Source: a virus. From it: DNA of 64,000 nucleotides. The stretch is from IMG/VR virus record IMGVR_UViG_3300012919_001127, positions 1-64,000 of that record; one strand, 5' to 3'. This document shows positions 1 to 51,023 of this stretch, piece after piece. Position 1 is the stretch's first letter. Every line of letters starts with the position of its first letter. A program made the position numbers and the translations under genes. The notes beneath the pieces were generated by a model, which ran no database searches, was not told the DNA's origin, and saw only the letters and a program-made list of their open reading frames with translations.

Positions 1-1026
1 CAACTCAGTGATTCCATCTTTGAATGCTGGTCCTACGTTTCCTAATGCAACAAAAGTTCCTTCAAGATTTTCCTTGATAGCAGGATCAACTGCCGCCAAC
101 AAAGCCTGAACTCTTTTATCATTCATTTGTTCTCTCAATGCTTCAGCGGCCTGCTTTCTTGTCATACCTGTAATTTTTGAAAGTCTGTCTAACTGCATGA
201 TGTATTGATTTGTACCTGCGGCTAGTTGTTTTGCATTTCTGCCTTCAACTCCACCTCTCATCTTTTGCAGTTCTAAGTAATCATTTGTAAATTCTGCTAC
301 CTGTTCATTGCTTACACCAAGTGCATTCAAACCTTTAATGTTTGGTTGCATTTCTCTACTTAAATTTGTAAATGCCCTTGCACCAGCTGTTGCTCCTCCA
401 AACAATGCCGCAAGATTGTTAGATCCATCTGATAATGCTCCAGCAAATGTTTCAAGGTTAAATGATGTTTGTGTGGCCATTTTTTGTACTTCAAACAATC
501 CGCCACCAAAGTCAATACCAGCATCACTTAGATTTCTAAATGAATCTATACTCATGTCTATAAAATTGACCAATGATTGTACAGCACCTCCTAGCATAGG
601 TCCAAGTAAAGGTATTGTACTGATCAGTCCTGTGACGTGTTGTGAGAAATCACTGAGCCTATTTCCGCCCATTAATAATTCTTTGCCCAATGCTCCTATT
701 GAAGCACCTGCGTTGGTAAGTCCACCAATAAGCATACCACCAACCCTTGAAGCCATGTTGCCCAATTTTTTGAGTGCGCCTGTTGTATCTTTTCCAGCCT
801 GACCTAGACCTTTTGTTGCTTCAGTGGTTTGTTTTGTTGCTTTTGTTTGGGCCTTATTGGCTCCTATCATGCCCTTGGCATTGGCTCCATCAAAGGCACC
901 CTGAGCTCCACCCGTATTACCGCCCTGCCCAGAAATGGCCTTTAAAAGTAGCTGTAATGTGGCTTCTGAAGCGGCGTTTGACGTAACACCGTCCATTCCT
1001 CCGCCTTGATAAGTAACTTGAACCAT
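1..1026 (-). CDS. Putative tail tape-measure protein, 3' part off the left edge
   Basis: An open frame starts at the ATG at 1026-1024 and runs to base 1 with no stop, so only the first 342 residues are visible. The protein is rich in Ala, Gly, Thr and Lys, with hydrophobic stretches at about residues 95-115 (GGMLIGGLTNAGASIGAL) and 132-158, and amphipathic helices after them. This is the usual look of the tape-measure protein that sets tail length and sits in the tail tube. It lies next to gp26, a hub-assembly gene, but on the opposite strand, with a late-promoter-like octamer (1088-1081) 55 nt upstream. The family is inferred from composition and context; another long hydrophobic virion protein is possible. 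Confidence 0.55.
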   Translation of the reverse strand, partial: MVQVTYQGGGMDGVTSNAASEATLQLLLKAISGQGGNTGGAQGAFDGANAKGMIGANKAQTKATKQTTEATKGLGQAGKDTTGALKKLGNMASRVGGMLIGGLTNAGASIGALGKELLMGGNRLSDFSQHVTGLISTIPLLGPMLGGAVQSLVNFIDMSIDSFRNLSDAGIDFGGGLFEVQKMATQTSFNLETFAGALSDGSNNLAALFGGATAGARAFTNLSREMQPNIKGLNALGVSNEQVAEFTNDYLELQKMRGGVEGRNAKQLAAGTNQYIMQLDRLSKITGMTRKQAAEALREQMNDKRVQALLAAVDPAIKENLEGTFVALGNVGPAFKDGITEL

Positions 1027-1099: not shown

Positions 1100-1963
1100 A
1101 TGCCTAATGTAAAACAAACAGGACCTAATCCGTTACACAAATATTTCAGGCAACCTAAAATATATATCAACTTACCAAGTAATGGTAATTGGTATCCGGA
1201 AGGTGCTATTGAAAAAACGGAGAACAATGAATATCCAGTGTTTGCTATGACGGCCAAAGATGAACTTGCATTCAAAACACCAGATGCGTTGCTGAATGGA
1301 CAATCAGTTGTGACTGTTGTACAGAGCTGTGTTCCAAATATCAAAGATGCGTGGAATATGCCAACCATTGATGTAGATGCTTTACTAATCGCAATCAGAA
1401 TAGCAACATATGGTGAAAAACTTGAAATCAAAACTAAGGTGCCAGTAGCTGGTACTGATAGGGCTTTTGATCTTGATCTAAGAATGCTTTTAGACAAGTA
1501 TCAGAATGTCTCGTATGATTCAACAATGACAACTGGCAATTTGAAGATGACTTTGAAGCCTCAAACATATAGAGAGTTCACAAGAACTGCTATCAAGACG
1601 TTTGAAGAACAAAGGATCAATGCAGTTGTAAATGATCAAGAAATACCAGATGCAGAAAAATTAGAAAAGTTTGCACAGTCATTTAACAAACTAACAAACA
1701 TTACCATTGACATGGTATCTAATTCTATTGTACAGATTCAAGCTGATGACACAGTGGTTGTTGACAAGAATCACATCGCAGAATTTATTGCCAAAGGTGA
1801 TAAATCATTCTTTACTGATGTGGTTGATCATTTGTCAGCTCAAAAAGAAAAGTTTGATGTCAAACCTTTCAACATTGAAACCACAGCTGAAGAGCGTGAA
1901 GCTGGTGCACCTGAATCATTTGAAGTGCCTATTACGTTTGATCAATCAAATTTTTTCGCGTAA
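1100..1963 (+). CDS. 26: gp26-like baseplate hub protein
   Basis: 287 residues resembling the T4 gp26 family (T4_baseplate). The N-terminal NPLHKYFRQPKIYINLPS and the following NWYPEG segment are the conserved signature. In T4, gp26 takes part in assembly of the central hub of the baseplate. The start is the first ATG after the divergent late promoters, with GGAG about 7 nt upstream. The last in-frame codons are AAT TTT TTC GCG TAA and contain the heptamer T TTT TTC. The -1 frame is open from just before this point to 2187 and lacks a start codon, so part of translation probably continues as a 362-residue fusion. This resembles the gpG/gpGT tail chaperones next to tape-measure genes in other phages. 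Confidence 0.85.
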   Translation: MPNVKQTGPNPLHKYFRQPKIYINLPSNGNWYPEGAIEKTENNEYPVFAMTAKDELAFKTPDALLNGQSVVTVVQSCVPNIKDAWNMPTIDVDALLIAIRIATYGEKLEIKTKVPVAGTDRAFDLDLRMLLDKYQNVSYDSTMTTGNLKMTLKPQTYREFTRTAIKTFEEQRINAVVNDQEIPDAEKLEKFAQSFNKLTNITIDMVSNSIVQIQADDTVVVDKNHIAEFIAKGDKSFFTDVVDHLSAQKEKFDVKPFNIETTAEEREAGAPESFEVPITFDQSNFFA

Positions 1964-1993
1964 GGATCTTAAGTAGGTCTCTCGAAGAGATCC
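1951..1993 (+). promoter_or_regulatory. Probable programmed -1 ribosomal frameshift site
   Basis: T TTT TTC at 1951-1957 is in frame for gp26 and has the X XXY YYZ form of slippery heptamers. The 0-frame stop follows two codons later, at 1961-1963. Two alternative stems lie downstream: GGATCT (1964-1969) with AGATCC (1988-1993), 6 nt after the heptamer, or GGTCTCT (1976-1982) with AGAGATCC (1986-1993, one bulge). The heptamer, its phase and the stems are read directly from the sequence; efficiency is unknown. Confidence 0.7.
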
Positions 1994-2187
1994 TAAAAGA
2001 AGTTGAAAATTTAGATAACGAGACTAAAAACTTCAAGCTAGAACTTGCAAGACTATGCTGGTATATGCGTGGGGGTGTGACCCTTGACGAAATGTATGCA
2101 GTTGGTCCTGAGGATCGAGAGATATTCGCAAAACTTGTAAAAGAAAATCTAGAAACTGCTAAAAAGACAAATATGCCTTTCTTTTAG
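1957..2187 (+). CDS. -1 frameshift extension of gp26 (76 residues)
   Basis: The frame is -1 relative to gp26 and open from 1942 to the TAG at 2185-2187. It has no ATG, GTG or TTG before residues that look conserved (CWYMRGGVTLDEMY, then GPEDREIF and ENLETAKKTN). It can therefore only be made as a fusion to gp26 (286 + 76 residues) or from a rare start. Its stop overlaps the stop of the convergent gene at 2184 by two bases, so it fills the gap between two genes exactly, as a real coding segment would. The WYMRGG...EDRE segment resembles proteins found beside gp26 in other marine T4-like phages; that likeness is from memory and not aligned. Confidence 0.7.
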   Translation, partial: RVRILSRSLEEILKEVENLDNETKNFKLELARLCWYMRGGVTLDEMYAVGPEDREIFAKLVKENLETAKKTNMPFF

Positions 2188-4796
2188 GCTACTTGTTTTT
2201 GTGTAAGTTGTGCCTTAACGGCTTTTTGTAATCCAGCATCACTGATTTGACTTGCTAACGTAGGCAAGTCAATTTGCATTCCTGAACCAAGGTCTTTTCC
2301 AGTACCTGCACTTGCACCTGCTTTAGGTGGTTGACTTAATTGACTTTTAACTTGATCACCTATGCCAGCCTTTTTGATTTGATCAGCTAGTCCTGGTACA
2401 TCAACATCCATTCCTGTTGCTTGTTGTCCTTTGGCTGTGCCTGGTGGCTTAGGTTGTTTGCCGCCTATTGCAGTTTTACCTGCTGTGCCTGGTGGCTTAG
2501 GTTGCTTGTCACCTATTGCTTTTCCAATGCCGCTCTTAGGAGCATCAACTCCGTCTGCTGGTTTTGTTCCAGGCATCTGTATAACTTTGCCTGTCTTGTC
2601 GTCTTTGCCATCTTTGTTAGCATCAACTGGTTTTGCAGTAGCGTCAGTTGACTTTGGATCTTCACCTGGTTTTGCTGTTGCTCCGCCTGGTGTTGGTGCT
2701 TTAGGATCTTCTTCTCCTGCGTCTGGTTTTGCCGCTGGTTTCAAAGGTACCTTTGTGTTTGTTGCTATGGTACCGATGGATTCATCTGATAATCCTGCGT
2801 CAGATAAAATATTAACAATGGTTCCCATGTCTTTTGGTTTGCCCATCTTGGTCCAAGTCTTCATTAATTTTTCTTTGGTAATTTTGTTAGCTAATTGTTT
2901 TGCTCCGCTTTTAACTGCTCCTGCGGCTTTACCTACAGCACCTGAAACTTTTTCTCCTGCCTTGTCCATAGCATCACCAACCTTGTTGGCTCCTGCTTTT
3001 GCAAGTGCTTTCATTTTGTCTAACACCGGACCTTCTTCTAGGTTGTCTTCTAAGAAATCGTTGTAGTCTTCAACTATGCTGTTGTATTTTTCTATGTCTA
3101 TTGATTCTTCTTTTGCATCAGCCTTTTTATCGTCAGCTTTTTTATCGCCTGGTTTGACTTCCATGCCTGCTAATGCGCCGCCAAGTCCAACTGCCGCCGC
3201 GGCTTTAACAATATTTTGCGCCATATCGTCAACTGCTGTTTCCATTGATCCTGACGCTACGTTACTAAACACTTGTTTATATAATTCATCTCTTACATCA
3301 TCTGGTAAATTTTCTAAAGCCTTGTCTAGATTTTCTGTAAACGGATTAGCATCTACAAAAACACTTTTAATTTGGTAAACAGGATTTCCGTCTGCATCAA
3401 CACCTTCAATCATCGATTCAACAGTACCGCTGTATACAGTTCCGTCTGGTAATGTTTTACTAATAGTTGAGTTCCATGTTTGACCAACTTTAATATCATC
3501 CGGTACACCGTCGACTTGTATAGAATCACCAACAACAATTTCATTGGAGGCAGATATACTTGTACCCATCCATTCTTTTTGGGCTACTGCTCTTTCAAAT
3601 CCTTGTGCATTTTGTAATGCTTCAATATCTTCTTCTGTCAGACCAGCATCTAATAATTTTTGTGTGTTTTCAGTTATCCAGGCATTGTCTGGATAGTCTG
3701 CTGAATTTATTCCTGCGTCATTCAAATCATCTGCATCAAGTTTAGCAACAACTTCTGTATCAGTTGCATCTTCTATACCATCACCTGACACATCTGTAGT
3801 TTTTTGTATTTCAACATCTGTGCCTTCAATACCAAATTCGTCTTGCATGGAATCAATAGCCTGATTTAGGTTTCCGCCATCTTCTCCTGCAAGAGCAAAT
3901 ATCTTGTCGTTAACCTGTTTCAATTGACCTTGTAAAACTTCTTTTGCTTCTGCATCAAGATCAGTTGAACGCATCAATTCAGCCATTGCACTTCTTGATT
4001 GTATAAGTTCTTTGGCCGCATCAGCATCTAGGTCAGCCATGCTTGTTGCATCCATGCCGTCAAGTGCTGTTATGTCAATTTCGCCTGAAGCATCATTAAT
4101 GAATGTGTTTGTGATCTCTGGAGGTAACAGCTTGTCTAAAGCATCTCCTAATGCACCTGCCGCCGCACCAATTGCCGCACCTTTAACGGATTTAGCAACT
4201 GCTGTTGACAGTTGATCACCTTTCAATGTGTTACTTGCAAGTTTTAAAAAGAAACCAATTGCCGCACCAGATACAACACCACCACTTGCAAATGCAAGTA
4301 CAGAAGTCATTGCACCAATTACAAATGCCGCCTTGGCTGGATTTTCTTTTGCAAAGCCACCATAACCATCGACAACCTTGAGTATCTTTTGACCCATTGG
4401 GTTGCCTTGAAGTTTTGTTTTTAATTCTGCTTTTAGTTTTTCAAATTGTGCATCAAAGTTTTTTACAGGGCCACTGTTCTGTGCCGCTTTCAATAATTGA
4501 TCTATCTGTGCTTGTAATTTTTTTGCTTGATCGCCAACAACACCTGCGGCCTTGCCTAGTGCAGTTTTGTTGTCGCCACTTTGTACAGCAACTTTTTCTG
4601 CGTTTGTAAAGATGCCATCAATTTGTTTGTCAGTAAGTTCTGCTTCAAATAGTGTGTTGATGCTTTCAACTAATGGCCAAACATTCTTTTCCCATTTTCC
4701 AATATAAATGCGTTGTGCTTCTGTTAGCTCTTGCCAACCTTCCGCAAGTATTGTTTTTGATTTTAAATTATAAGATGTAACTTCACCTAGTTGCAT
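2184..4796 (-). CDS. Large Ala/Gly/Lys-rich putative virion protein (870 aa)
   Basis: Function not recognised. The N-terminal third is helical and contains a hydrophobic, possibly membrane-active stretch at about residues 155-195 (AAFVIGAMTSVLAFASGGVV). The middle (about 225-470) is acidic and Asp-rich. The C-terminal 200 residues are Pro/Lys/Gly low complexity with internal repeats: KQPKPPGTA occurs twice, and a module of about 28 residues occurs twice (MDVDVPGLADQIKKAGIGDQ and MQIDLPTLASQISDAGLQ). It follows the 188-residue gene by 9 nt and is probably co-transcribed from the late octamer at 5402-5395. Composition and position next to tail genes suggest a structural or ejected internal protein; this is inference. 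Confidence 0.7.
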   Translation of the reverse strand: MQLGEVTSYNLKSKTILAEGWQELTEAQRIYIGKWEKNVWPLVESINTLFEAELTDKQIDGIFTNAEKVAVQSGDNKTALGKAAGVVGDQAKKLQAQIDQLLKAAQNSGPVKNFDAQFEKLKAELKTKLQGNPMGQKILKVVDGYGGFAKENPAKAAFVIGAMTSVLAFASGGVVSGAAIGFFLKLASNTLKGDQLSTAVAKSVKGAAIGAAAGALGDALDKLLPPEITNTFINDASGEIDITALDGMDATSMADLDADAAKELIQSRSAMAELMRSTDLDAEAKEVLQGQLKQVNDKIFALAGEDGGNLNQAIDSMQDEFGIEGTDVEIQKTTDVSGDGIEDATDTEVVAKLDADDLNDAGINSADYPDNAWITENTQKLLDAGLTEEDIEALQNAQGFERAVAQKEWMGTSISASNEIVVGDSIQVDGVPDDIKVGQTWNSTISKTLPDGTVYSGTVESMIEGVDADGNPVYQIKSVFVDANPFTENLDKALENLPDDVRDELYKQVFSNVASGSMETAVDDMAQNIVKAAAAVGLGGALAGMEVKPGDKKADDKKADAKEESIDIEKYNSIVEDYNDFLEDNLEEGPVLDKMKALAKAGANKVGDAMDKAGEKVSGAVGKAAGAVKSGAKQLANKITKEKLMKTWTKMGKPKDMGTIVNILSDAGLSDESIGTIATNTKVPLKPAAKPDAGEEDPKAPTPGGATAKPGEDPKSTDATAKPVDANKDGKDDKTGKVIQMPGTKPADGVDAPKSGIGKAIGDKQPKPPGTAGKTAIGGKQPKPPGTAKGQQATGMDVDVPGLADQIKKAGIGDQVKSQLSQPPKAGASAGTGKDLGSGMQIDLPTLASQISDAGLQKAVKAQLTQKQVA

Positions 4797-6489: not shown

Positions 6490-6690
6490 TTAATCTTTAT
6501 TTGGATCTTCTTTTTTGGCTTTGTAGTCGTCTATTATTTCTTTTCTTCGGTCAGTAGCAAGTCTACGTATCTCGCTTAACCATTTTCTAGCAGAACGTTT
6601 AGTGCGTTCGCTCTTGCGTATTTCCCAGGCTTCGTTAGCCTTATAGTATTCTAGATATGCTTTTGTTAACTTGTCGTGTGTATCGTCCAT
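6490..6690 (-). CDS. Small charged helical protein (66 aa)
   Basis: MDDTHDKLTKAYLEYYKANE... is strongly charged (many Lys, Arg, Glu), predicted all-helical, with no Cys and no membrane segment. It resembles short hypotheticals found beside gp46 in marine T4-like phages. Its ATG touches the stop region of gp46, so it is translationally coupled within the gp55-gp47-gp46 block. Function unknown; nucleic-acid or protein binding is plausible from charge only. Confidence 0.65.
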   Translation of the reverse strand: MDDTHDKLTKAYLEYYKANEAWEIRKSERTKRSARKWLSEIRRLATDRRKEIIDDYKAKKEDPNKD

Positions 6691-8462
6691 TATGTCATTA
6701 CCTCTACATCATTATCATATGATGTAAATCCATTTTCTTTGATTACTTTCAACACGTTTGTAACACGACTTGCTAATTCTTCTTTGTGTGATATCAAATA
6801 AATGTTCTTTTGACGTTCTCTACCCATTTTCTTCAATACAGCAATGGCATTTTCTACACCATTTGCATCCATACCACTATCAACCAATTCATCAATAAAC
6901 AATAGGTTGATATTTTGATACAAACTTTCCCACACATCTCTAAATGCCCAACTCAATCCTAGTATTAATCTGTTTCTTTCACCTCTTGACAAGTTGTCAA
7001 AGTCTAAATCTTGTCCTAGTTGTGTGATTTCAACAGTTAGATCATTTTTAAACACCACTGTGTGTGGAAGTTGTAGTCTATCCAAATAATGTGTAAGTCT
7101 GTTGTTTAGATATGCTAGATTTTGATCAATAATCTTTTTCCTAATGAAAGAATCTTTGTTTGTCAACAGCTTGTATAAAAAGTCTTGGTGATCCTTTGTG
7201 TCATTTAGTTCATTAACGGCATCCCAGTTTACTTCTTGTATTGCAGTTTTTTCTAAATCCTCAATTTGTTCTGTGTATGGATCAAGTTCATCAGTCTTTT
7301 CTTTCAAACTTTGTTTCAAACTGTCAACGTTGCTTCTGTGTTGATATGCTTCTTTGGCAGTTTCATAAAATGTATTTGGCTTACTGTCAAGTTCGCCTAT
7401 GTCTTCAATAAGTTTTTCAACCTTTTGCATTTTTTCAGCCATGCTTGTTTGATAAACGTGTGCATCACCATAATCTTTTTGCAGTTTATCTTTCATTTCT
7501 TCAAGTTTGTCATCATGCAAGTCTTGACCACAAGCATAACATTTGGCAGTTTCAAGTTCATCAAGTTGTTTACCAAGTTTGTTTACATTATTATCAGCTT
7601 GTTCTAATGCACGTTCAACAGTTGCACGTTCTTTTCTTAAATTAGTAAGATGTTTACTGTTTTCTTCCCAAGTTTTTAGTTTTTCATGATCTTCAAGTTC
7701 ACTATCTATGTCAAGTTGCTCTAATTCACGTATTGCTTTTTCTAGTTTATCTCTGTCTTGTTTGTTTTGTGCAATCCAAGCCTTTTTTCTGCTGTGCAAT
7801 CTTTCAATATTTTCTTTGATCTTATCATTGCTGTTTGTGATTGCTTGTATTCTTGCGTTTTCTTCTGTAAGTTTATCTCTTGTTATTTTTGTTGCCTCTC
7901 TTAATAGATCAGCTTTTTCAGAAAGAATTGTAATACCAAGTAATTGTTCTATTATAGCACGTTGATCGTTTGGCTTTAGTGCTAAAAAGGGCTCTGTGTA
8001 AGTGTTAAGTGCCACAATATGCTTGAACATATCATGACTCATACCTAACAAGTCATTTATATCGCCTTGTGTTTTACGTGAATCACCTTGGCTTTCATCT
8101 GTAAGTTCTTGTTCTTTTTGATCTATGTAAAATTTAAGTGTGTTAGGTTTACGTCCTCTTTCTATTCTATAATCTTTGCCATTTTTAGTAAATGCAAGAG
8201 TAACTAACATACCTTTGTTGTTTGTTTTGTTTACAAGATTATCACGTCTAATGTTTGTAAGTGCTTGTCCGTAAAGTGCATAACTCAAAGCATTAATAAT
8301 TGTTGTTTTACCTGTACCGTTACGTGATCCACTGTCGTCTCCACCTTGATCTAAGTTTTCACCTAACACCAATGTAAGTTGTTGCTTGTTGAAATCTACT
8401 GCCTGTGTTGTGTTACCAACACTCATAAAATTTTTAACTGTCAAATCTTGTATTCTAATCAT
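6690..8462 (-). CDS. 46: gp46 recombination endonuclease subunit (Rad50/SbcC-like ATPase)
   Basis: 590 residues with all family landmarks: Walker A GSRNGTGKTT (45-54), a long coiled coil with the zinc-hook CYACGQ (C308, C311), the ABC signature LSRGERN (491-497), Walker B LLFIDE (520-525) and switch His in LISHKEE (556-562). With gp47 it forms the Mre11/Rad50-type complex that processes DNA ends for recombination-dependent replication and, in T4, degrades host DNA. Its start overlaps the end of gp47 by 8 nt, as expected for coupled subunits. Length is close to T4 gp46 (560). Confidence 0.97.
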   Translation of the reverse strand: MIRIQDLTVKNFMSVGNTTQAVDFNKQQLTLVLGENLDQGGDDSGSRNGTGKTTIINALSYALYGQALTNIRRDNLVNKTNNKGMLVTLAFTKNGKDYRIERGRKPNTLKFYIDQKEQELTDESQGDSRKTQGDINDLLGMSHDMFKHIVALNTYTEPFLALKPNDQRAIIEQLLGITILSEKADLLREATKITRDKLTEENARIQAITNSNDKIKENIERLHSRKKAWIAQNKQDRDKLEKAIRELEQLDIDSELEDHEKLKTWEENSKHLTNLRKERATVERALEQADNNVNKLGKQLDELETAKCYACGQDLHDDKLEEMKDKLQKDYGDAHVYQTSMAEKMQKVEKLIEDIGELDSKPNTFYETAKEAYQHRSNVDSLKQSLKEKTDELDPYTEQIEDLEKTAIQEVNWDAVNELNDTKDHQDFLYKLLTNKDSFIRKKIIDQNLAYLNNRLTHYLDRLQLPHTVVFKNDLTVEITQLGQDLDFDNLSRGERNRLILGLSWAFRDVWESLYQNINLLFIDELVDSGMDANGVENAIAVLKKMGRERQKNIYLISHKEELASRVTNVLKVIKENGFTSYDNDVEVMT

Positions 8463-9471
8463 CTTTGTTTAGGTCTCTATAAATTTGCAACAATTTACCT
8501 TTGTTAAATTGTTCTGATTCAATTGCTTCAATCTCTTTTGCAACTATTTCATCAACACTTTCAAACTTTGTAATGTCGATATCCGAATTCATTTCTTCTT
8601 CTTGTGTGTTTGGTATTAAACTTATCTCTCTACAGTTGTACTGATTGATAAAAGTTTCTTTTATGAAGTTTGCTTCTTCATAACTAATAGGCAAATCAAG
8701 TGTAACTCTTAGATACATCTTAGATTTTAGTATAGTTTCTTTTTCATCAAGCAGTCTTGATAATTTTATTGTTCTATACTTGGGGCAATTCCACCAATTG
8801 ATGTACTGCGGTTCGCCACCATGTTCTAGTATCATCATACCACGTTCATCATCCCACGCATCTGCGTAATTGTGTGGCAATGCGTTACCAATGTAATGCA
8901 CAGGACCTTTGACTTGGCGTTTGTGGAAGTGTCCACTGAACACATATTCTTGATGTTTAAAGTGATCTGCTTGTAATTCACCAGTGTCTGGCATCTGAAC
9001 CATTGCATTCATGTAAAAGTTAGGAAGTTCAAAGTGTCCAAAGATGTATTTGCTTTTTATTTTAGGAATCTTCTTCCATTCATCTCCAACCAACCACGGA
9101 ATAAGTGTAACATCACCTTCTGTCATCATCTCATTTACCATTGTGATGCCTTCAATGTGTCTTGCAAAGTCTATGGAGTTGATATCTCTTTTGTCTTTGT
9201 AGTATAAATCATGATTGCCAGGAAAGAAATAAAATTTTTCAAAAGCCTTGCCTAGCTTTTCAAGACTTCTAATAGTTGCGTCCATGGTCAGCATATTCAA
9301 ACTGTTTCTGTTGTGATGCCAGTCGCCACAAAAGATACCAGTTTCGCAACCGTTTTCTTTGGCTTGTTCTATATACCAATCAATAAATTCTTCACAGTCA
9401 TCATTGTGAATTTTTGAATTAGACTTCAATCCAAAATGGATGTCTGTAAATACTGCCGCTTTCTTAAACAA
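8455..9471 (-). CDS. 47: gp47 recombination endonuclease subunit (Mre11/SbcD-like)
   Basis: 338 residues with the calcineurin-like phosphoesterase motifs in order: FTDIHFG (8-14; D10 and H12 bind metal), CGDWHHNRN (48-56), PGNHD (84-88), FGHFE (144-148) and SGHFHKRQ (179-186). It is the manganese-dependent nuclease partner of gp46. A reasonable sigma-70 promoter (TTGACA, 17 nt, TACACT at 9522-9494) lies just upstream, so the pair could be expressed apart from gp55. Length equals the T4 protein (339). Confidence 0.97.
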   Translation of the reverse strand: MFKKAAVFTDIHFGLKSNSKIHNDDCEEFIDWYIEQAKENGCETGIFCGDWHHNRNSLNMLTMDATIRSLEKLGKAFEKFYFFPGNHDLYYKDKRDINSIDFARHIEGITMVNEMMTEGDVTLIPWLVGDEWKKIPKIKSKYIFGHFELPNFYMNAMVQMPDTGELQADHFKHQEYVFSGHFHKRQVKGPVHYIGNALPHNYADAWDDERGMMILEHGGEPQYINWWNCPKYRTIKLSRLLDEKETILKSKMYLRVTLDLPISYEEANFIKETFINQYNCREISLIPNTQEEEMNSDIDITKFESVDEIVAKEIEAIESEQFNKGKLLQIYRDLNKDD

Positions 9472-19300: not shown

Positions 19301-19878
19301 TGAAATACAAAATATTATTTGGAGCAAAAGCAGATGCTCGATTACAGGCAAGTATAAAAATTGTTAAAAACCCAGACCAAGTTGTTAATGACAATGATAT
19401 AAAAGCAAGAGTTGTTACTGCAATTAATCAATATTTTGCTTTAGAAAATTGGGATTTTGGTGATACTTTTCATTTCTCAGAGATGGCTACGTATGTAATG
19501 AACAAAACAGCGCCTGATCTTGTAAATCTTGTAATTGTTCCAAATCAAGAAAGTCAAGCATTTGGAAGTTTATATGAGATTAAATCAGAAGCAGACGAAA
19601 TCTTTATAAGTGCGGCAACAGTTGATGACATAGCAATTATTGATGCCATCACAGCAAGTAAACTTAAAGCGTCAGGCAATGTAGTTACAACAACTACAAG
19701 TGCCACAACAGGCGTAACAAGTGGTGCAACTTATACAACTGGATCAGTTTCAAGTTCATACAGCAATTCAAGTTCTACAAGTACTTCAAGTTCAAGTTCA
19801 AGTTCTAGTTCATCTAGTTCAAGTTCTTCAAGCTCTTCTAGTTCTTCAGGTGGCGGATCCTCTGGGAGTGGATACTAA
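16306..19878 (+). CDS. 6: gp6-like baseplate wedge protein with poly-Ser tail
   Basis: 1190 residues, well above T4 gp6 (660). The N-terminal 110 residues (DFNDYIESSEYLALIDLIAF, GQNISYRIDLNAREN, then LLSYNPKRNQTANG) are typical of gp6, the J-family protein that forms the inner ring of the wedge. The C-terminal wedge region (KILFGAKADARLQASI, then DIKARVVTAINQYFALENW and GDTFHFSEMATYVM) is also conserved. The extra length is a polar beta-rich insertion at about 560-930. The last about 40 residues are almost pure Ser ending GGGSSGSGY. Its stop TAA overlaps the ATG of the giant gene by one base. Confidence 0.88.
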   Translation: MSSTNKQNRLLLAEDWKKVYQSFRNAEFKSYDFDNLRRTMINYLRQNYPEDFNDYIESSEYLALIDLIAFLGQNISYRIDLNARENFLELAERRESILRLARLLSYNPKRNQTANGLLKFESIATTEDIVDSNGTNLANQTVLWNDPANTNWREQFEKVLNAALPVNSIVGKPIKSDTVEGVPTFQYRFDASNSDVPVYTFSKNVDGKNMQFQVVSTDVNDGIIYEEAPLPGNSLGFLYRDDGRGPGSSNSGYFVHFRQGVLDTGTFQIDAPSTNQSVGLEATNINNTDIWLYKLNSIGTEDQLWTKVDSVEGNNIVYNSLRKSVRNIYGVLSKTQDKVDLIFSDGTFGNLPQGSFRTYYRTSLNDQYNIVPSDLVSISVNIPYTSKAGNSETISLTLELKYTVDNATVSESNASIRENAPATYYTQNRMVTGEDYQVSPLSISQEIIKVKSVNRTSSGISRYYDLLDATGKYSSTNLYGADGVLYKDSFTEKTSFTFVTKTDIQGTIANTVTPLLSKKSMVNYFLTNFPKTLVADLGAKWSSTSTKTNMSTGKFVDSNSTPLQVGSFTASALKFIEPGTLIKFTAPTGYHFMADNSHKLMIGAADHKNAITYKWMKVVSVTGDGTTDNADGTGPIILNDIIDSNAILSELKPKFSKTLLADVQSQMTDQIFAYKTFGLRYDSSLRQWRMITENNLDISSAFSTGKTGDVTDQQLDASWLLLFETDGEKYTITTRGQRYIFESNEEIRFYYDSTQKIYDNRTGQIIKDKIKILNINTQPDSTSPFNVDYPWEISSEYRDGDGYIDSKKVEVTFFDSDDDGVVDDPETFVTLVNETTNALSKYVFLKKYTTSDGIEDYKYMDNSTGTVIIKQNESFVGALSQYTNGQVFYLVTEGVFKVYNSSSASIDLTTDYKAYIGRDGLKFHYIHSADDDSRIDPSSSNIVDTYLLTRTYDTNFRQYLDGNIENLPLPPSSDNLFNNYGSSISKIKSISDDVIYHPVKYKILFGAKADARLQASIKIVKNPDQVVNDNDIKARVVTAINQYFALENWDFGDTFHFSEMATYVMNKTAPDLVNLVIVPNQESQAFGSLYEIKSEADEIFISAATVDDIAIIDAITASKLKASGNVVTTTTSATTGVTSGATYTTGSVSSSYSNSSSTSTSSSSSSSSSSSSSSSSSSSSSGGGSSGSGY
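19744..19868 (+). repeat. Poly-serine low-complexity repeat in gp6
   Basis: A run of Ser codons (mixed TCA, AGT, TCT, TCC, AGC) encodes a Thr/Ser then pure Ser tail. Codon mixing argues that the Ser tract is selected at protein level and is not just a slipped DNA repeat. Confidence 0.8.
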
Positions 19879-22800
19879 TGGCCTATAATGCAAACCAAGA
19901 AGAATATCCATTACCGGCAGGAGATCAAAGTAAAGCCCAGCACCGCAGAACAAGTGCGGAACATCTTCCTAAATATTTTAGAACTGCACACAATAAAAAG
20001 TTTTTAAGTGCTACACTTGATCAATTACTAAATCCAGGTGTTGCTGAAAAAATTAGTGCATACTATGGCAGAAGAATAGCAACTGCTCGTAAGGCGGCAG
20101 ACACTTATGTATCTGATGTTAGCACTGAAAGAGAAGAATATCAGTTTGAACCAGCAACTGTAATCAAAGATAATTTAAACAATGTAACTTTTTACAAAGA
20201 TTACAATGATCTTAAAAATCAAATCAAAGCATTCAACGGAACAGTAGACGATGACAGTAAAGCATTTAGACAAGAATACTATGCTTGGAATCCGCACATT
20301 GATTGGGATAAATTTACAAACTTTAGAGATTACTATTGGCTACCAAACGGACCATTGTCAATACCTGTAACAGGACAAGCTAAAGGAATTACAAGTACCT
20401 ACACAGTAACCAGCATTGACAACTTGGATAACAAGGCATACGTTTTTACTCCAGACGGAAAAACAAACAATCCTACATTAAAACTTTATAGAGGTCAAAC
20501 ATATAAGTTTGAAGTTAATACTCCTGGAATGCCTTTAAGTTTCAGAACTGCAAGAACTTTAGACAATGACTATCTATACAGCTCAGGCATAAGTGATAGC
20601 ACACATTCTACTGATGTTGGCACAATAGAATTTACAGTAGACTTACTTGCACCAGACACTTTATATTATGTAAACAGTAATGATATAAATGCAAGTGGGC
20701 TTATTCAAGTATATGATGTTTTAGAAAACTCTGCTATAGATGTTGAAGCAGAAATACTGGGCAAGAAAACTTACAAGATGACCAATGGCTATGAAATGTC
20801 AAATGGTATGAAAGTTAATTTTGAAGGCACAGTAACACCTGCCAAATATGCTACAGGCAGTTGGTATGTAGAAGGTGTAGGAGATGAAATAAAACTTATT
20901 GCTGAACAAGATGTAATGATACCTGGTACATATTCAACAAGCAGAGCCAATCCTTTTGACTCTGAAGGATTTGACAGAAGTCCTTTTAGTACTGCCAGTG
21001 CTTATGCAGATGCACATGATTACATTGTACAAAATAGATCAGCGACAAGTAGAAGTCCATGGTCAAGATATAATAAATGGTTTCATAAAAGTGTGCTTGA
21101 AAATATTGCAACAATACTTGACGAACCAGCAGACATAAATCAAACAGGTAGAGCGGCAAGGCCTATTATAGAATTTGATGCTCAATTAAAATTGTATGGC
21201 TTTGGTACACAGGCAAAAGATGATGTTGATCTATTAGACACATTTACAGCCGACGTGTTTAGTACAATAGAAGGTGCAATAGGTTACAATATTGATGGAG
21301 TAGACGTAGGTGACAATATGAGAATATTGTTCACAGCTGATCCAGACACAAGAGTAGCAGGTAAAATTTTTAAAGTAAAATTTATTACACATAACAACGT
21401 TAGACAGATAAGCCTTATTGAAGAAACAGATTCATCTCCATTAGAAAATGAGTGTGTGCTTGTACAACAAGGAGAAACTTACAAGGGCAAGATGTGGTAT
21501 TACAATGGTACCAAATGGTTAGCTGGACAAGAAAAAACATCAGTAAACCAAAGTCCAACCTTTGACCTGTACGATGTTAATGGAAATGATTTTAAAGATG
21601 CAACAACTTACCCAAGTTCTACTTTTACAGGAACAAAACTTTTCAGTTACAAACGTGGAACAGGAGCCAATGATAGTGTTTTAGGTTTTCCTTTAACATA
21701 CAGAGCATTAGTAAACACAGGAGATATTGTATTTGATTTCAATCTACTTACTGATACTTTTACATATCAACAGATGAACGCAACGTTTTCTGGAAAAACA
21801 GATGTAGGTTTATTAAGAAGATATACAGATAGAACAACATTTACATACGCATCTGGTTGGACAAAAGGATATGAAGAAAGCAAACAGTTGGTGCGTAGAC
21901 AATATATTGTAAACACACAGCTAAATGACTTTGCTATTGATGTTTATAACAGAAGTGGTGACATTAACGATTTATGGGCAAGAGTTTATGTAAACAATAA
22001 AGCAAAATCAAGCGGAGTTGATTACACAATAAACAGATTAAATGGAATTGCTTATATAAGATTTGTAAATGATTTAGCTGTTGATGATATATTAGTTATT
22101 AAAACAAAAAGTGCAACAGTTAAAAATTCAAATGGTGTTTATGAAATTGCAGGAAACTTAGAACGTAATCCTTTAAATGATAACATTGGAAGTTTTACTT
22201 TAGGAGAAGTAAATGATCATGTGTCTAGTATTGTTGAAATGCGTGATGACTTTTCTGGCGTGTTTCCAGGCACTGGAAATTTAAGAGACCTTGGAAACTT
22301 ATCTGCATATGGAACAAGATTTATTCAATCAAGTGGACCTTTTAATTTAGCAAATTATCATGTAACAAGCAAAGATGCAAACATTGTTCATTCATTAAGA
22401 TTTGCAAGAAAAGAATATGGCAAATTTAGAAAGTTATTTTTACAAACAGCAACTGGTTTAGGATTTGATGGAGCAACAAAAATACACTTTGACAAAGTGA
22501 TGGAAGAATTGAACAAAAGTAAAACCAACGATATGCCGTTTTACTTTAGTGACATGATTGGTTATGGAACGTTTAAGAAATCTACACACGTTGTTGAAAA
22601 TACATCTACTCAGTATTATGCTTTGGCAACAAATTTTGATCTTACAGCTTTATCAAATAGAGCTGTCAGCATTTACATCAACGGAGTTCAGTTGATACAT
22701 GGCACTGATTACAAATTTGAATCCGCCTATGCAGGTTTTGTAACAATTACAAAAACAAAAGCTATAAATGATGTAATTGAAATATTTGAATATGAAAATA

Positions 22801-25800
22801 CTGACGGAAGTTACATTCCGCCAACTCCTACAAAGCTAGGTTTGTATCCTAAATTTAAGCCAGAAATTTTTGTAGACAACACTTACCAAACTCCTACAAA
22901 AGTTATTCAAGGACATGATGGAAGTATATTTGTTGCTTACAATGATTTTAGAGACGACTTACTACTTGAATTAGAAAAAAGAATTTACAATAATATAAAG
23001 GTAGAATATGATGTTGACATTGTAAACATACATGACTTCATTGGCGGAGAATCAAGAGATACAGGATTCAGTAGAGCGGCGAGAGACAAAGCATTACTAC
23101 CTGACTTTGTTGAATGGAACAGAGCAGTAGGTGATCCAGATTACACAGACTTTTCTTTCTGGTCAAGAACTAATAGTTTTACATACAATTATAAAAATAC
23201 TAGTTCACCAACGCAAAAAACAAATCCAGGTTATTGGAGAGCAGTTTACAAAGAAGCATATGATACGGATCGTCCGCATACGCATCCATGGGAAATATTA
23301 GGATATAGCGAAGAGCCAACTTGGTGGCAAACTGTTTATGGTGCGGCTCCTTATACAAGTGAAAATAAAATACTTTGGCAAGACATTGAAAAAGGTGCTT
23401 ACAGAATACCTAATGTGCCAATGGTTTACAACGAAAAATATGCACGACCAAACATAACAAAGCATATACCAGTTGATGATGGCGGTAACCTATTAAGTCC
23501 ATTAGACAGTAACTATGCAAAAAATTATATTAGCAATAGAACGCAAGAACCTTTTGTGTTTGGTGATCAAGCACCAACTGAAAATGCTTGGCGTAGAAGT
23601 TCTGAATATCCTTTTAGTTTAGTAACTGCATGGATATTAAACCAACCTACTAAAATTATTGGTTTAGGATTAGACAGATCAAGACTTAAAAGGAATCTTG
23701 CTAAAGAAATAATTTATACAGAAACTAGTAAAAGATTAAGATTAAAAGATATTGTGTTTCCTAACACAGTATCTGATACTGAACGTGTACAAACAGCAGG
23801 TTTGATAAACTATGTCGCAGAGTATATGAATAGCAAAACTGTAAAATACTATAACAACTATCAAACTGATTTGAAGAGTATCACTAATCAATTAGGATTA
23901 AAGATAGGCGGATTTACTGATAAAGCTAAATTCAAACTCATACTTGATAGCAGAACTCCATACAATGAAGGCAATGTTTTTGTACCAGATGAAAACTATC
24001 AAATATTTTTAAACAAGAGTAGTGTAGTTGACCTTGTGCCTTACAGTGGTGTTATAATTGAGAAAGTAGCAAGTGGCTTTATTATTAAAGGTTATGATTA
24101 TGACAATCCTTACTTTAAATATATCACACCAATTGAACTTGCAGATGATCCGTTGGTAAGTGTTGGCGGAGTTAGCGAAGACTTTGTTAGCTGGACATCA
24201 GGACAAGTTTATTCACCAGGATTTATTGTAAAATTTGCAGACGAGTTTTACATGACAGAAACTTTGCATACTGCTGGTGATAGTTTTGAACAAGCAAACT
24301 TTGTAAGATTATCAGAACTTCCTGTAAAAGGAGGCAGACAAGCATTTTTCAGACGTCAATGGAACGAAGGAATAAATCAACAACCAACTGAACTAGCTTA
24401 TGGTACACAAATTAGAACTATACAGGGAGTTGTCGACTTCTTATTAGGATATGAAAGATATTTAAAATCACAAGGTTTTATATTTGAAAATTACAATAAA
24501 GAAATAAACGAAGTTGAAGATTGGTCTTTAAGTGCAAAAGAATTTATGTTTTGGACTACACAAAATTGGCAAGCCAATAGTGTAATTACATTAAGCCCGG
24601 GAGCAATTAATTTACAATTTTATAGAAAGTATCATGTTGCAGATAATTTGTTTGATAATTTTTATGGATACAACTTATTCAAAGCAGACGGTAAAAAATT
24701 ATTACAAGCAAACGTAAATGTTTATAGAGATAATGATAACAATTTAGGTATATCAACTAAGAATACAACAGATGGAGTCTTTGCTGTTAAAGTTCCTTTG
24801 GTACAAATTGAACACGTTTGTTTACTTGACAACAGAACTGTGTTCAGTGATTTCATCTATGATTTAGAACCTGGTTATAGACAAGAACGTATTAAGGTAC
24901 TGGGTTATAGAACAGATGACTGGACAGGTGGTTTAAATATTCCAGGATTTGTATATGATGACGTAAACATTTCAGAATGGGATTCATGGAAAGATTATGC
25001 TATAGGCGATACAGTAAAATATAAAGAGTTTTATTACGTTGCAAAACAAAAGATTCCAGGCAAAGAAGTTTTTGTTGATACTGATTGGCAAAGACTCAAC
25101 GGAGCACCACAGTCTGGGTTACAAGCAAACTTAGATTACAAAGCAAAACAATTTGCAGACTTTTACGATCTTGACACGGATAATTTTGATACAGACCAAC
25201 AAAGGGTAGCACAGCATCTTATTGGATATCAAAAAAGAAAATATTTAGAAAACATTATCAATGATGATGTGAGTCAATACAAATTTTATCAAGGCTTTAT
25301 ACAAGATAAAGGAACACTCAATAGTTTAACTAAATTGTTTGATGCTTTATCTAACACAGATAATGATAGTGTTAATTTTTATGAAGAATGGGCAGTAAGA
25401 TTAGGACAGTTAGGTTCATCGCAATCTTTTGAAGAAGTTGAGTATAAGCTAGATGAAAGTAAATTTAGATTAAGTCCACAGCCGGTCGAATTAGTACAAA
25501 CAGTTACAGGTGACGAAACTGATTTAATTTATAGACAAAGACCATTTGAAACTTATTTAAAACCAGATGGTTACGATCATAGTCCTTTTCCAACAAAGTA
25601 TAAAGATGACGATTACATAGAGACTGCTGGTTATGTCAATAGTGCAGATGTCAAACAAACAGTTGCAAAATATGACGATATTCTAAATTTAACTCTTACA
25701 ACTTTAAATGTAGGAGATTACATTTGGACAGGAACAAGTAAAACAGATGACTGGGACGTTCTGAAATACGTAAGAACAAATGACAAGGTTGTAAAAGTTA

Positions 25801-28800
25801 CTAAAAATGGAACTACAAATGAAGTTGAAATACAACTTAACAACCAAGCAAATTATGTCAAAGATGATATCATTGGTATTGTTGATGTTGCAGATACTGA
25901 AAAGTTTTTCAAAGTATTAAGATCTGAATTAGATACTGTATTCTGTACAGACAATGGTGAAACTTCAGATGTAGAAACTGCAAACGGCTTTGTAACAACA
26001 TTTACATCTGCAAGAGTTGCCAACCTAGAAGAAGCAAACACAAGATTGTTTGCTGGTGAATTCCAAGTTGGTGAATTACTTTGGGTAGACAATGATAGCA
26101 CCAACCGTTGGATTGTTTTAAAGAATACACCGCAACACAGCGAGTTACAAGTTATTAGTAACGTTGAAACTGGAGACTCAAGTACAAACTTTGGAAAAGT
26201 AATTGGTGCTGATGATAGAAACACAACTCTTGTAGTTGGTGCAAGTGAATCAAACAAGGTTTACATATTCCAAAGAACAAACGATAACACAACTTATAAT
26301 CATGCACAGACGCTTGATGCTCCTGCGAATTTATACACAGGTGATGGTAAGTTTGGTACAGGGTTAGATATAAGTTCAGATGCTAAATGGATTGTAATTG
26401 GAGCACCAAATGCCAGCAACGCAAAAACAAAATTCAAAGGCACATTTGCAAGTAACGTAAGCTACACAGAAAAAGATATTATACAATATCAAGAAAACTT
26501 TTGGGAGGCACAATTTCCTATTTCTGCGGCACAGGGAACACTTACTTTTAATAGCTTCTATGATCCTACACAGTTAGCAAAAACAACATGGACAGGCACA
26601 GCTTATCCAGAGATAGTTTATGCAATAAGAGGAAATTATAATTTTAATTTGCCAACGGATCATATTTTAGTGAGAGCACCTACTGTACAATACGAAGGAT
26701 CAGCAGTAGGAGATACATTAGTATTCAATTGGAAACAATATTCTCAAAACTATCCAAATGGCATTTTACCTTTTGGATCATCAGGACCTGCAATCAGTGA
26801 ACTTGAAGGAAACAAAATTATACAAGCAAAAGTTGATGCTGTATTATATTTTGATAATCTTTTAAGAACGCCACAGGTAGGAGATCTAATTAGCACAGGA
26901 TCAGCGATAGGAACTGTAAATGCAATCAGTGTACAGAACGTAAACCAAGCAGTGATTTACATCAGTAACATGAACGGACAGTTTTTAGCAAGTGATTCAG
27001 CAACACTTGGTGGCGTAGCAATGGGTACATACACATTGGTAGAACCTGTAAATTCACAAGCGTCATTTGGTGGTTGGTGGAAAATAGATGTTGCAACTTC
27101 TTTCAACACAACAGTTAAAACAATTACTACACCACAGTTTGTAATACAGGATATCATCACCCAAAATGAAAGCAAGTCTGCAGAAATTTATTACAACACA
27201 ATGGATGATGTATATGCTTTAAACCAAGTTACTGATCCAACCAAAGGCGGAAGGTTAGGACATTTAAGTTTCTACAATAAACAAGGACAGTCAGACATGA
27301 GTCCATTCTGGTTCTTTAGAGGACCTAAGGCTTGGACGGATACTTTAAATGTAGCCAATACGTTTACAATGAGAGTAAATGAAATAAGAGGCGGAGCAGG
27401 ATTTACTTTATATGATCCAGGTGTGCTTGGATTATCTTTCACTTATCTCAATGACACTTTACATACTGTTTATGATTTATGGGACGGATTTGTTGATGTA
27501 ACATTTACAAATTTTGACAACAATGGTAATCCTTTTATTCCACAGGTGGGTGATATAATTGTTGACCAACAGTCAGGAGCAACTGCCACAGTGGCTTATC
27601 TACAGGAACAGTTATTAGATTGTAGATTGTATGTCAAAAATAGAAGTGGATCATTTAAGTTTGGTAATTTACACAGTGATACAAGCACCATTGCAATCAA
27701 AGATGGCGTAAGTGCAGGAGTTGATAGACTTTCAGGTAGACTTGACAATGCAAATATGTCTGGAAGTATTGCAGGTAAACTTGTTGTTGTTAAAAACACA
27801 GATAGTACAATGTTGCCTGTTACTGTACCAACATTTAGAGATGAATTAGAAATTTATGTTTACAACAATAGAACAGTAAATGGTGTTGCAAGAACGCCTA
27901 ACACTCCTAATCCTTTAAACAAAGACTGGGCTCAAGTGTCTGCTTTAAAATTAGATACGACTGGAACTCCTAGTAGCTTTACAAATGAAGGAGCATATTT
28001 TGTTTACGAAAGAATGGGAACAGGACTTTACAGTTTCCAACATGGTTACACAAATCCTCAAAGAGAGTCAAGCAGATTCTTAGGAACTATTGTCAAGTTA
28101 ACAAAATCTACACAAAGCGAATTGTATAGATTATTTGTTTCTGCTCCAGGTAACAATACAACAAGTAACAGTGGTAGAATACATCTAGTCACACATGGTA
28201 GAGATACTGACGGTACAACTTATGAATGGGCTAGAAGTAAAAACTATTACTTCAAGGGTGAATTCAGTGATTCTATTCCTTACTACACAAACGATATTGT
28301 GTTGTATAATGGAGCATTTTATGAAGCAAAAACAAACTTAACCGCAGGTGCTTGGGACGTAACATACTGGACATTAATTGATGCGTTCATTGACTACATA
28401 GGCTATCTACCAAATGATACTAATCTAGCAGTTACTGATGATAGCACGTTTGAAAAAACAAACTTAACAAATTATGCACACCCATTTGCAGTTGCAAAAT
28501 TTGGTGACGTGATTGCAACTGTGGCTGACTTTGACAACAGCGATCCTAAAATTATAATTTATAGATTTATTAGAGGACATTATGGATTCTCACAAATGAT
28601 ACCAGCACCAGTCAATGGCATAGGGTTTGGATCAAGTATTGCTGTAAGCGATGACGGTTCAATGGTTGCCGTTGGTGCACCTTTGGCAGATGATAGAGCA
28701 AATGACAATGGTAAGGTATTTGTATACACAAACAATCTTGGAACGTTTAGTTTAACACAAACATTGTATAGTCCAGAAAAAGATGTTGCTGAAAGATTTG

Positions 28801-31800
28801 GAGCCGCTATAGACTTCAATGGCAATGATTTAGTTGTAAGTTCAAAGGGTGGTGACCTTGTTACAAACACAACGTTTGACAACCTTACAACAACTTTTGA
28901 CAATAACCTAACACAATTTGAAAAAGTAAACAGTGATAGTGGTCAGGTGTTTATGTATCAACAGGTAAAAAACAAATTGCTATACGCAGAAAAATTTAAT
29001 TACAAAAATCCTGCAACTGAAAGATTTGGTGAATTCTTGTTGTTTAATGAAAACCACGTTTATGTACCAATGCCAGAACTGTCCATCACAGATGATAACT
29101 TTATTGGAACATTAATTGATTTCAAGAGAACACGTGATATTATGCCTTGGGCAGTTTTACACAGTCCATTGGATCAAGTTGATTTAACAAAATTCAAAGG
29201 AGTGTTCATATATAATATCTCAGAAAATCCTGTTGCAAGAGCAATAGATTATATTGATCCTATACAAGGAAAGATAGCTGGAGCGGCGGAAGAAGAACTT
29301 ACTTTCAAAACGCATTATGATCCAGCAGTATACACTAACGGTACAGCTTCGCCAACAACTGTAATTGATTCAGAAAATTATTGGAATGACAAATGGGTTG
29401 GAAGACTATGGTGGGATCTAAGCACAGCTAAATTTGTAAATCCTTATCAAGGAAATATAATCTATAATACAGCTAATTGGAACAAGTTATTTACAGGAGC
29501 ATCAATTGATGTTTATGAATGGGTTGAAACAACACTTACTCCTACCCAGTGGGCCGCACAGGCAGATACAGAGGAAGGACTCACAAAAGGAATAAGTGGT
29601 ACTCCTAAAGACACATCAACATTTGTACAGATACAAAAATTTGATAGTGTTGCAAAGAGCTTTTTCAACAAATATTACTATTGGGTAAAAAATACAAAAA
29701 TTATTCCTCAGGTAACGTTTAGAAAAACATCTGCTTATGATGTTGCACAATTAATTCAAGATCCTGCAGGACAAGGACAAAGATTTGTTGCACTTTATTC
29801 TGACAGCAGATTTGGTTTATACAACTGTGAAACACTTGTAAGTGGACCTGAAAATGCAATCAACTTTAGATACTGGACTATTGAAAACAAAGAAATCAAT
29901 ACTCATAATCAATATCAATTGATCACTGAAGGTTTAGATACAAGCAGACCAAACAGAGATCTTGAACGCAAATGGTATGACAGTTTAATAGGTGTAGACA
30001 CCAACGAAAGACCTGTACCAGATACTGTGTTAAGTCCTAAACAAGCATATGGTATTTTAGACAGACCAAGACAAAGTATGTTTAAAAATAAAACAGAAGC
30101 ATTAAAGCAAACTATAGAAAGAGCAAATAGAGTTTTACTACAAAACTTAATTGTAGATGAATACAACTTGACACAGTTCTTAAGTAAAGATCCAACACCT
30201 ACTTTGTTAAGTAGGAAGTATGACAAAGCAATTGACACTTATGCGGAAATAGGTTTAGTAGGAGTTTCCAATGTTATTCCTGCTGTCCTTACTCCAGTGT
30301 TTGTTAACGGAAAACTTACAAGGGTAGATATAACAAACGGTGGTAAAGGTTACATCACTGTTCCTACATATGAGTTTGGTAATGTTGGCAATGGAACTGA
30401 TGCAGAAATTACTTTGACAATGGATGCCAATGGTACTATCACAAGTGCAACAGTAAAAAATGAAGGACAAGATTATGGACCTAACACAACACTTGAAGTT
30501 AGAAAATATAGTGTATTGGTTAGAACAGATGAAAGTGTAAATTCAAGATGGTCCATATACGCATATCAAAGTGTTTCTAAAACTTGGTCAAGAACTACAA
30601 GTTCTGCATATGATGTAACACAATGGTGGAGTTACACTGATTGGTATGATGTTGGATACAGTGAATTCACTGAAGTTGATTATTTGATTGATTACTCATA
30701 TGAACTTGATTCATTGACTGACCAAGTAGGTGATATTGTAAAAATTTCAACCATAGGTTCAGGTGGTTGGTTGTTGTTAGAAAAAATTAGCAACGATGGT
30801 TCAGACTACACAACAAAATATAAAACAGTTGGTAGAGAAAATGGAACTATTAGATTAAGCAACAGCTTGTATGATAGTGCTAATAGTAACATAGGTTATG
30901 ATGGATTAAGTTATGATACATCATTCTATGATAATCAACCAACTAGAGAATTAAGAATTATTTTAGAATCATTAAGAGATGATATATTCATTAATGATCT
31001 TGCTGTTGAATACAACAAAATGTTTTTTGCAAGTGTTAGATATGCTTTCTCAGAACAAGCAAATATTGATTGGGCATTTAAAACAAGTTTCATAAAAGCA
31101 AAACACAATGCAGGAGATTTACAACAAAAAGTTAATTTCCAAAATGATAACTTACCAAGTTACGAGGATTTTGTTAAAGAAACTAAACCATATAAAACAA
31201 AAATTAGAGAATATGTTAGTAACTATACAAAAACAGAATTAACAAACAGTGGTGTTACAGACTTTGATATTCCTCCGGCATACAGCATCAATGATGGTAA
31301 GATTGTACCTGCAAGTCTAAAAGTTAATAATGATTTAATTGTAGGTCAAGATGCTTCTATTACAACTTACCCTAACAAATATTGGGCTGACAATGTTGGA
31401 TTTGAAGTATTAAGAGTAAACATCAAGAATGGTGGTACACAATATTTAGAAACTCCTTTAGTTAAATTTGTAGGTGGAGGTGGTAGCGGTGCTGTGGCAA
31501 AAGCAACACTTGGTACAAATGGAACAATCAAATATATTACCGTAACGAATCCAGGTAGAGGATATCTGTCTGCTCCAACTGTAACCATTGAAGGAACTCA
31601 AGACACATCTGGAATACCAGCAGTTGTATCAGCTCAACTAGGAAACAGTAAAGTAAGATCTAATCATATAGTAAGTAAATTTGATAGAGTAACAGGAACG
31701 TTCTTAATTACAACATTAACGGAAGTTGAAAACTTTACTGGCACCGGCAGTCAAACAATTTTTGATCTTAAGTTTCCTATGGATCTAAGAACAACAACGA

Positions 31801-46769: not shown

Positions 46770-47670
46770 TTTCAAACCTCATCACAGTCATAATGACGGA
46801 ATGTTTATTGATTGTAAAAAGATCATAATAAATCACAACAACATCAAACCGCCACACATTAATCAAAACGTGCAAAATACAGAGTTTTGGATCAAACGTA
46901 AAAGAAAAGAATGCACAGTTGTTCTAGGAGAAAGTTGGACTTATGGCGAAGCACTATTAAACCTTGTGTCATCTAACCTACAAAAGTATGATTTAGAAAC
47001 ACAAATAAAATATTGTTGGGGTCCCACAACTGCAACATTACTAGATACAGATTATTATCAGTATGCAGTTCCAGGTAACAACAATGCAACTATTTTTGGA
47101 GCAGTTGAAAGGATTTTAGAAACTGTGAGTCCTTTGTATGATACTGTGTATTTGCTGATACAGATGACAGAACCATCTCGTGAAGAAATTATTGTAAATG
47201 ACTTGCAGGAACAAAAACATCCACTTGCAAAACTATACGATCAAGATTATGTAAAAGGAATGACAGTGAAGGAATGGTGTGTAGAAAATGAAGATATAAT
47301 GTTTACACAACTTAAAACAACATTATTAAAATTTAAAAATGTAAAAACAACTGCTTGGAAAAACTTTTGCACATTACAAAATAAAAAGGATTATAATTTT
47401 AAAATTTTAGAAGAAACATGGATTGAATTTAGTGCAAGAATAAATGGACACAAAGTAAATAGCCCAGACTTTTATGTTGCAGGGTGGCTTAATAACCATT
47501 TAAAAACATATTCAGGAATAGAAAATACTCCTAAATACTTTAATGAACAATTAGATTTGATTGAAGCATCAAATAAATTTTTACATGATTGTCACGACCA
47601 CATACCACACCCTGGAGTAGGTGCACATAAACTTTGGGGTTATAACGTGTTTCAACTTATGGACAAGTAA
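46747..47670 (+). CDS. SGNH-hydrolase-like protein (307 aa)
   Basis: Contains VVLGESWTYGEAL (S63), the GxS block of SGNH hydrolases, then a Gly/Asn block (AVPGNNNATIFGAVE). A C-terminal His-containing segment HPGVGAHKLWGYNVF follows, where block V would supply the catalytic His. Related enzymes are esterases or acyltransferases that add or remove O-acyl groups on glycans. Similarity is weak and the exact catalytic Asp/His pair is not certain. Overlaps the preceding radical SAM gene by 23 nt and is coupled to the next (TAATG). Confidence 0.5.
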   Translation: MIVPKWYSFKPHHSHNDGMFIDCKKIIINHNNIKPPHINQNVQNTEFWIKRKRKECTVVLGESWTYGEALLNLVSSNLQKYDLETQIKYCWGPTTATLLDTDYYQYAVPGNNNATIFGAVERILETVSPLYDTVYLLIQMTEPSREEIIVNDLQEQKHPLAKLYDQDYVKGMTVKEWCVENEDIMFTQLKTTLLKFKNVKTTAWKNFCTLQNKKDYNFKILEETWIEFSARINGHKVNSPDFYVAGWLNNHLKTYSGIENTPKYFNEQLDLIEASNKFLHDCHDHIPHPGVGAHKLWGYNVFQLMDK

Positions 47671-50987: not shown

Positions 50988-51001
50988 AGTGTTTAATTTT
51001 C

Positions 51002-51009
51002 CATAAATA
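51002..51009 (+). promoter_or_regulatory. Late promoter octamer for the UDP-sugar dehydrogenase run
   Basis: CATAAATA at 51002-51009, 40 nt before the GTG start at 51050. Forms a divergent pair with the octamer on the minus strand a few bases away. Confidence 0.55.
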
Positions 51010-51015
51010 CTACTA

Positions 51016-51023
51016 TATTTATA
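51016..51023 (-). promoter_or_regulatory. Perfect T4-type late promoter TATAAATA
   Basis: Minus strand 51023-51016 reads TATAAATA, upstream of the 429-residue gene (ATG at 50987). Confidence 0.6.

Follow-up and report, generated by a model that had tools for sequence, protein, structure and literature searches.

The window analyzed here, the whole 64,000-nt stretch of viral DNA, begins with a truncated structural gene on the minus strand, followed on the plus strand by a homologue of phage T4 gene 26 with a slippery sequence near its 3′ end and a second open reading frame in the −1 register. The features of this locus are as follows.

1..1026 (−): N-terminal part of a divergent virion structural gene, a probable tape measure gene truncated at the contig end (phrog_14121, E = 7e-11; note on the RaK2 homologue; conserved beside gp26 in most relatives).
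1100..1963 (+): gp26, putative TAC-N, 287 aa (PF12322, phrog_150, fold match to T4-like hub assembly proteins).
1951..1957 (+): slippery heptamer T TTT TTC, in phase (invariant in 40 non-redundant relatives; 187/188 loci).
1961..1963 (+): 0-frame stop TAA, 3 nt past the heptamer (equal spacing in 43/43 loci of the first search and 66/68 of the profile search).
1963..1970 (+): stem 5′ arm, AGGAUCUU, 5 nt past the heptamer (covariation in 30 relatives).
1987..1994 (+): stem 3′ arm, GAGAUCCU (covariation in 30 relatives).
1957..2187 (+): −1 extension (putative TAC-C domain), 76 residues plus stop, giving with gp26 residues 1-286 a predicted 362-aa TAC-NC (dN/dS 0.27 in the −1 frame only; homologues in isolates and hundreds of contigs).

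The 0-frame product of 1100-1963 (+) is the 287-aa gp26. Its codons end AAT TTT TTC GCG TAA, so the heptamer T TTT TTC (1951-1957) lies in phase, with a single codon between it and the TAA at 1961-1963. From 1942 the −1 frame stays open as far as a TAG at 2185-2187 (81 codons), and after gp26 it reads FRVRILSRSLEEILKEVENLDNETKNFKLELARLCWYMRGGVTLDEMYAVGPEDREIFAKLVKENLETAKKTNMPFF; a shifted product would comprise 286 gp26 residues and 76 extension residues (362 residues). These readings agree with the first-pass annotation of this DNA, which had placed the heptamer in phase near the end of gp26 and given the same open frame, extension length and product size. The TAG and the stop codon of the convergent gene at 2184-4796 (−) overlap, and the annotation had also ended the frame there; that gene encodes an 870-residue protein with Pro/Lys/Gly-rich repeats near its C-terminus. 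The claim that the extension has no start codon was right for the part ahead of the conserved core and wrong within it, where the only in-frame ATGs of the −1 frame are found (2065 and 2092). A second in-phase slippery heptamer, A AAT TTT (1948-1954), overlaps the first in the window and is not general among relatives. We counted 116 in-phase X XXY YYZ sites in the open reading frames of the window, and apart from a case of gene overlap (54682-55266) the gp26 site was the only one followed by a −1 frame reaching at least 30 codons past the stop.

Profile comparison of gp26 revealed matches to PF12322 (41.8 bits, cutoff 24.5; E = 1.3e-10) and to the baseplate hub family phrog_150 (E = 3.6e-15). 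A structural model of gp26 (pLDDT 83) matched the fold of T4-like baseplate hub assembly proteins (E = 6.6e-23); no match to the model was found in the PDB. These similarities point to gp26 as the short chaperone, TAC-N. With gp26 as query, a single copy was found in the 75-kb record, itself a fragment, and no separate fused long form was detected there. An SbcC/SbcD-like pair of the T4 gp46/gp47 type at 6690-9471 (−) confirms that this is a T4-like phage.

The divergent gene at 1-1026 (−) matched phrog_14121 (E = 7e-11), a family that PHROGs files under head/packaging structural proteins, and no family model names it as a tape measure. Its RaK2 homologue is annotated as similar to tail tape measure protein, and the divergent structural gene adjoins gp26 in most relatives. 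Homologues in relatives exceed 840 residues, and one 842-residue portion holds a long hydrophobic segment. We consider this gene a probable tape measure gene on the basis of these comparisons.

The heptamer comparison across relatives that the first-pass annotation had proposed drew on three protein searches of viral contigs. Of 188 distinct loci, 187 had TTTTTTC unchanged and in phase, distinctness being judged within each search and the three sets overlapping in part. A search with the extension only, whose patterns exclude the heptamer, returned 80 loci, and TTTTTTC was present in all 78 that reached far enough upstream; a second profile search (at least 590 matching stretches) and a search with cyanophage gp51 brought the total to 187/188. 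Identity of the extension falls to approximately 50% among relatives that keep the heptamer. Across 40 non-redundant relatives (extensions less than 85% identical to each other, including isolates picked for having TTTTTTC) the seven bases had zero entropy and the flanking positions were variable. Three isolates left out of that set, XacN1, RAS14 and pf16, carry TTTTTTT in the same place. The isolates with the heptamer include Atu_ph07, Phosso, 121Q, RaK2, PA5oct, KVP40, S-PM2 and P-SSM2. Given two Phe residues and gp26 codon use, the chance of T|TTT|TTC is about 0.075 per independent lineage; since the lineages share ancestry and are not independent, we claim no product of these probabilities. 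The 0-frame stop lay 3 nt past the heptamer in 43/43 distinct close loci from the first search and in 66/68 from the profile search, and from its constancy in the 43 close loci the short form gp26 looks to have been retained.

Selection on the extension was analyzed between relatives. In the −1 frame dN/dS was 0.27 downstream of the gp26 stop; the first 15 codons of this frame gave 0.49, and the same DNA in the other two frames gave 1.0 and 1.9. Substitutions between close pairs numbered 200, 102 and 704 at the first, second and third codon positions of the −1 frame. The extension is thus under purifying selection in the −1 frame only, and the conserved-looking protein that had been noticed there is conserved indeed, with homologues in relatives. 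Slip site, coding −1 frame and its conservation are, like the stem described below, read directly from the sequence. A break in frame, taken alone, is also what a frameshift mutation, a decayed gene or an assembly error would leave, yet independent assemblies show the identical break at 187/188 distinct loci, many isolates share it, and purifying selection acts on both frames; the probability of such an origin is negligible. Assembly error and pseudogene were rejected for this conservation of the break across loci and isolates.

We also examined whether the extension could instead be a gene in its own right (gp51), expressed through re-initiation or from a weak start of its own after the gp26 stop, with the run of T incidental. 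Some relatives support this proposal: 75/77 distinct cyanophage-type loci have an ATG, GTG or TTG within the first 15 extension codons, and in P-SSM2, S-PM2, KVP40 and 121Q an ATG lies 2-5 nt past the gp26 stop and the two reading frames are annotated as separate genes. At one cyanophage-type locus, L183, the heptamer is absent and the extension starts with an ATG of its own. The first-pass annotation had held that homologues with a proper start for the extension would count against a frameshift; many cyanophages do have such an ATG, yet 76/77 of these loci keep the heptamer in phase. No ATG, GTG or TTG is present in the first 15 extension codons of the window or of 31/43 distinct close relatives, and the −1 residues that precede any start codon are conserved (FR[IVLM][RK][IL]). 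In four phages (Serratia phage BF, RaK2, Munch and XaC1) the 0 frame continues for 18 or 33 nt past the heptamer before its stop, and the homologous −1 residues begin at the heptamer, upstream of that stop, which excludes a post-stop start as the sole route in these phages. Separate initiation may operate in cyanophages in addition to frameshifting; as an explanation of the locus in place of frameshifting we regard it as improbable. The annotation had likewise named homologues with the two frames already fused, and no homologue was fused at the locus. At L183 (about 1486-1525), the sole cyanophage-type locus of 77 without the heptamer, gp26 ends ..QFIS and is followed by the gp51 ATG; its sequence indicates a natural loss of the frameshift site.

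Downstream of the heptamer, beginning 5 nt past it, AGGAUCUU (1963-1970) pairs with GAGAUCCU (1987-1994). In 30 relatives 89.6% of stem cells were paired, compared with 25-55% in slid registers, and 15 cells were altered on both sides, a number matched by 0/500 shuffles. Examples of this covariation are GGAUC/GAUCC to GGAUA/UAUCC, accompanied by replacement of E by D in the protein, and AGG/CCU to AAA/UUU. In a set of 40 representatives drawn from every group, the 45-nt stretch downstream folded more stably than its shuffled versions (z averaging −1.37 ± 0.29); for control windows inside the extension z was about 0. The fold of the window's own RNA (z −1.40 vs shuffles) was modest and not significant alone. 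RNAalifold applied to the full 40-sequence alignment found no common structure, and we therefore claim the stem for the closer 30 sequences only; the exact stem is lost in more distant subfamilies. The first-pass annotation had placed a stem 6 or 18 nt downstream: the conserved stem begins at 5 nt, and the hairpin at approximately 18 nt, which shares the 3′ arm of the stem, is mainly peculiar to the window sequence.

The stem also bears on transcription as a source of the fusion. RNA polymerase slippage on the six-T run could add one U to some transcripts, and the homopolymer, extended to seven T in XacN1, RAS14 and pf16, is of the kind this would call for. Six T are nevertheless short for transcriptional realignment, and polymerase slippage needs neither the conserved C at the seventh base nor a downstream stem at a fixed 5-nt spacing. 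The conserved C and the stem therefore favor ribosomal slippage, and slippage of the polymerase appears very improbable.

The nature of the extension was approached through gp51. Coverage of the phrog_150 profile was 5-232 for P-SSM2 gp26, 239-278 for P-SSM2 gp51 and 13-280 for T4 gp51; T4 gp51 accordingly represents the long form, with both parts fused, and cyanophage gp51 only its C-terminal part. Cyanophage gp51 matched the C-terminus of T4 gp51 (E = 5.4e-7), and the KVP40 record states that its gp51 resembles a 40-residue stretch at the T4 gp51 C-terminus. The window extension aligned in register, and weakly, with cyanophage gp51 (E = 0.0019) and in the same register, again weakly, with T4/Aeromonas gp51 (hhalign, E = 0.004, probability 8%). 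Nothing significant was found for the extension in Pfam or PHROGs; its model consists of three helices (pLDDT 84), and Foldseek found no match among viral structures. Position and intermediates suggest that the extension corresponds to cyanophage gp51 and the C-terminal tail of T4 gp51, the direct link to T4 gp51 being weak by itself. It is also possible, if unlikely, that the extension of the marine/jumbo branch is a separately acquired domain (WYMRGG...PFF) that is not of the gp51 type and has another partner, the slip site working with a lineage-specific stem. If so, the frameshift switch was kept and the payload exchanged.

Taken together, the comparative evidence strongly supports the first-pass proposal of a programmed frameshift at gp26, and we assign a probability of roughly 0.9 to a programmed −1 ribosomal frameshift that makes both tail assembly chaperone forms of this T4-like phage. 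We infer that ribosomes slip here and that the products serve as chaperones, and likewise the efficiency of the slip and the partners bound. Most ribosomes would complete gp26 (TAC-N, 287 aa), and a minority would slip −1 at U UUU UUC to give the 362-aa gp26-extension fusion (TAC-NC). The slip would be a tandem one of tRNA-Phe, with TTT in the P site and TTC in the A site, aided by the stem-loop 5 nt downstream. By analogy with lambda gpG/gpGT, many gp26 copies may coat the tape measure protein, and the C-terminal domain of a few fusion proteins may recruit tail-tube or baseplate-hub subunits. The abundant gp26 and the minor fusion would in this way help tail assembly around the tape measure.

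What the locus would share with lambda gpG/gpGT is a −1 shift late in a short chaperone gene, yielding a minor long form; the lambda slippery sequence is G GGA AAG. In lambda the tape measure gene is directly downstream, whereas in the window the probable tape measure gene is divergent. Vladimirov, Gautam and Davidson reportedly described frameshifting in several T4-like groups in 2022, with T4 itself having 26 and 51 as separate genes. The cyanophage/KVP40 gp26-gp51 pair resembles the window in having gp51 in the −1 frame right after gp26, TTTTTTC and a 3-nt stop distance; its extension is shorter than that of the window, usually has an ATG and is annotated as a separate gene. T4 shares the gp26 family (PF12322), and T4 gp51 consists of a gp26-like domain and a C-terminal tail matching cyanophage gp51. 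T4 gene 26 has no slip site, ending GAG TTC TTT GAG TTA CTA TAA (EFFELL), and, unlike in the window, the long form in T4 comes from a gene of its own that is already fused and divergently placed.

A frameshift-made chaperone pair is not a new class, and the link to lambda-type G/GT chaperones that the first-pass annotation had drawn, which comparison strongly supports, is already in the literature. PMC12846349, with reference to Vladimirov et al. 2022, states that −1 signals of the poly-T slippery type are already known from the TAC-N genes of T4-like phages, and the corresponding part of PMC10885494, which cites the same work, describes some T4-like phages that instead carry a short gene and a fused long gene. 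Because these passages already describe such TAC arrangements, the window belongs to a known kind, of which it is a well-supported further case. With the T4-like TAC-N/TAC-NC systems described there (gp26 as TAC-N, gp51 or a gp26-extension as TAC-NC) it shares a gp26 homologue, a 3′ poly-T slip site and a −1 C-terminal domain; it differs in representing an uncultured marine/jumbo-phage branch, with a near-absolute TTTTTTC and a stem that covaries within its subfamily.

What this analysis adds is the breadth (at least 590 matching stretches in one profile search), a heptamer that is near-absolute, a stem that covaries, and a correction to how jumbo phages such as Atu_ph07, Phosso, 121Q and RaK2 are annotated. 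Among the T4-like phages sampled, hundreds of uncultured marine ones included, the putative frameshift chaperone pair is near-universal at gp26 once the T4 lineage proper is set aside, and the separate fused gene 51 of T4 therefore looks like a derived exception. In most cases annotation either misses the extension or lists it as a hypothetical gene of its own, which can now be corrected. The slip site would also constitute a simple frameshift cassette.

Elsewhere in the window, 19878-34601 (+) holds a 4,907-residue open reading frame, among the largest of phage genes, that matches the virion structural family phrog_10938. A cluster at 47670-60424, possibly concerned with surface glycans or modification, encodes a UDP-glucose dehydrogenase as well as radical SAM/SPASM proteins.
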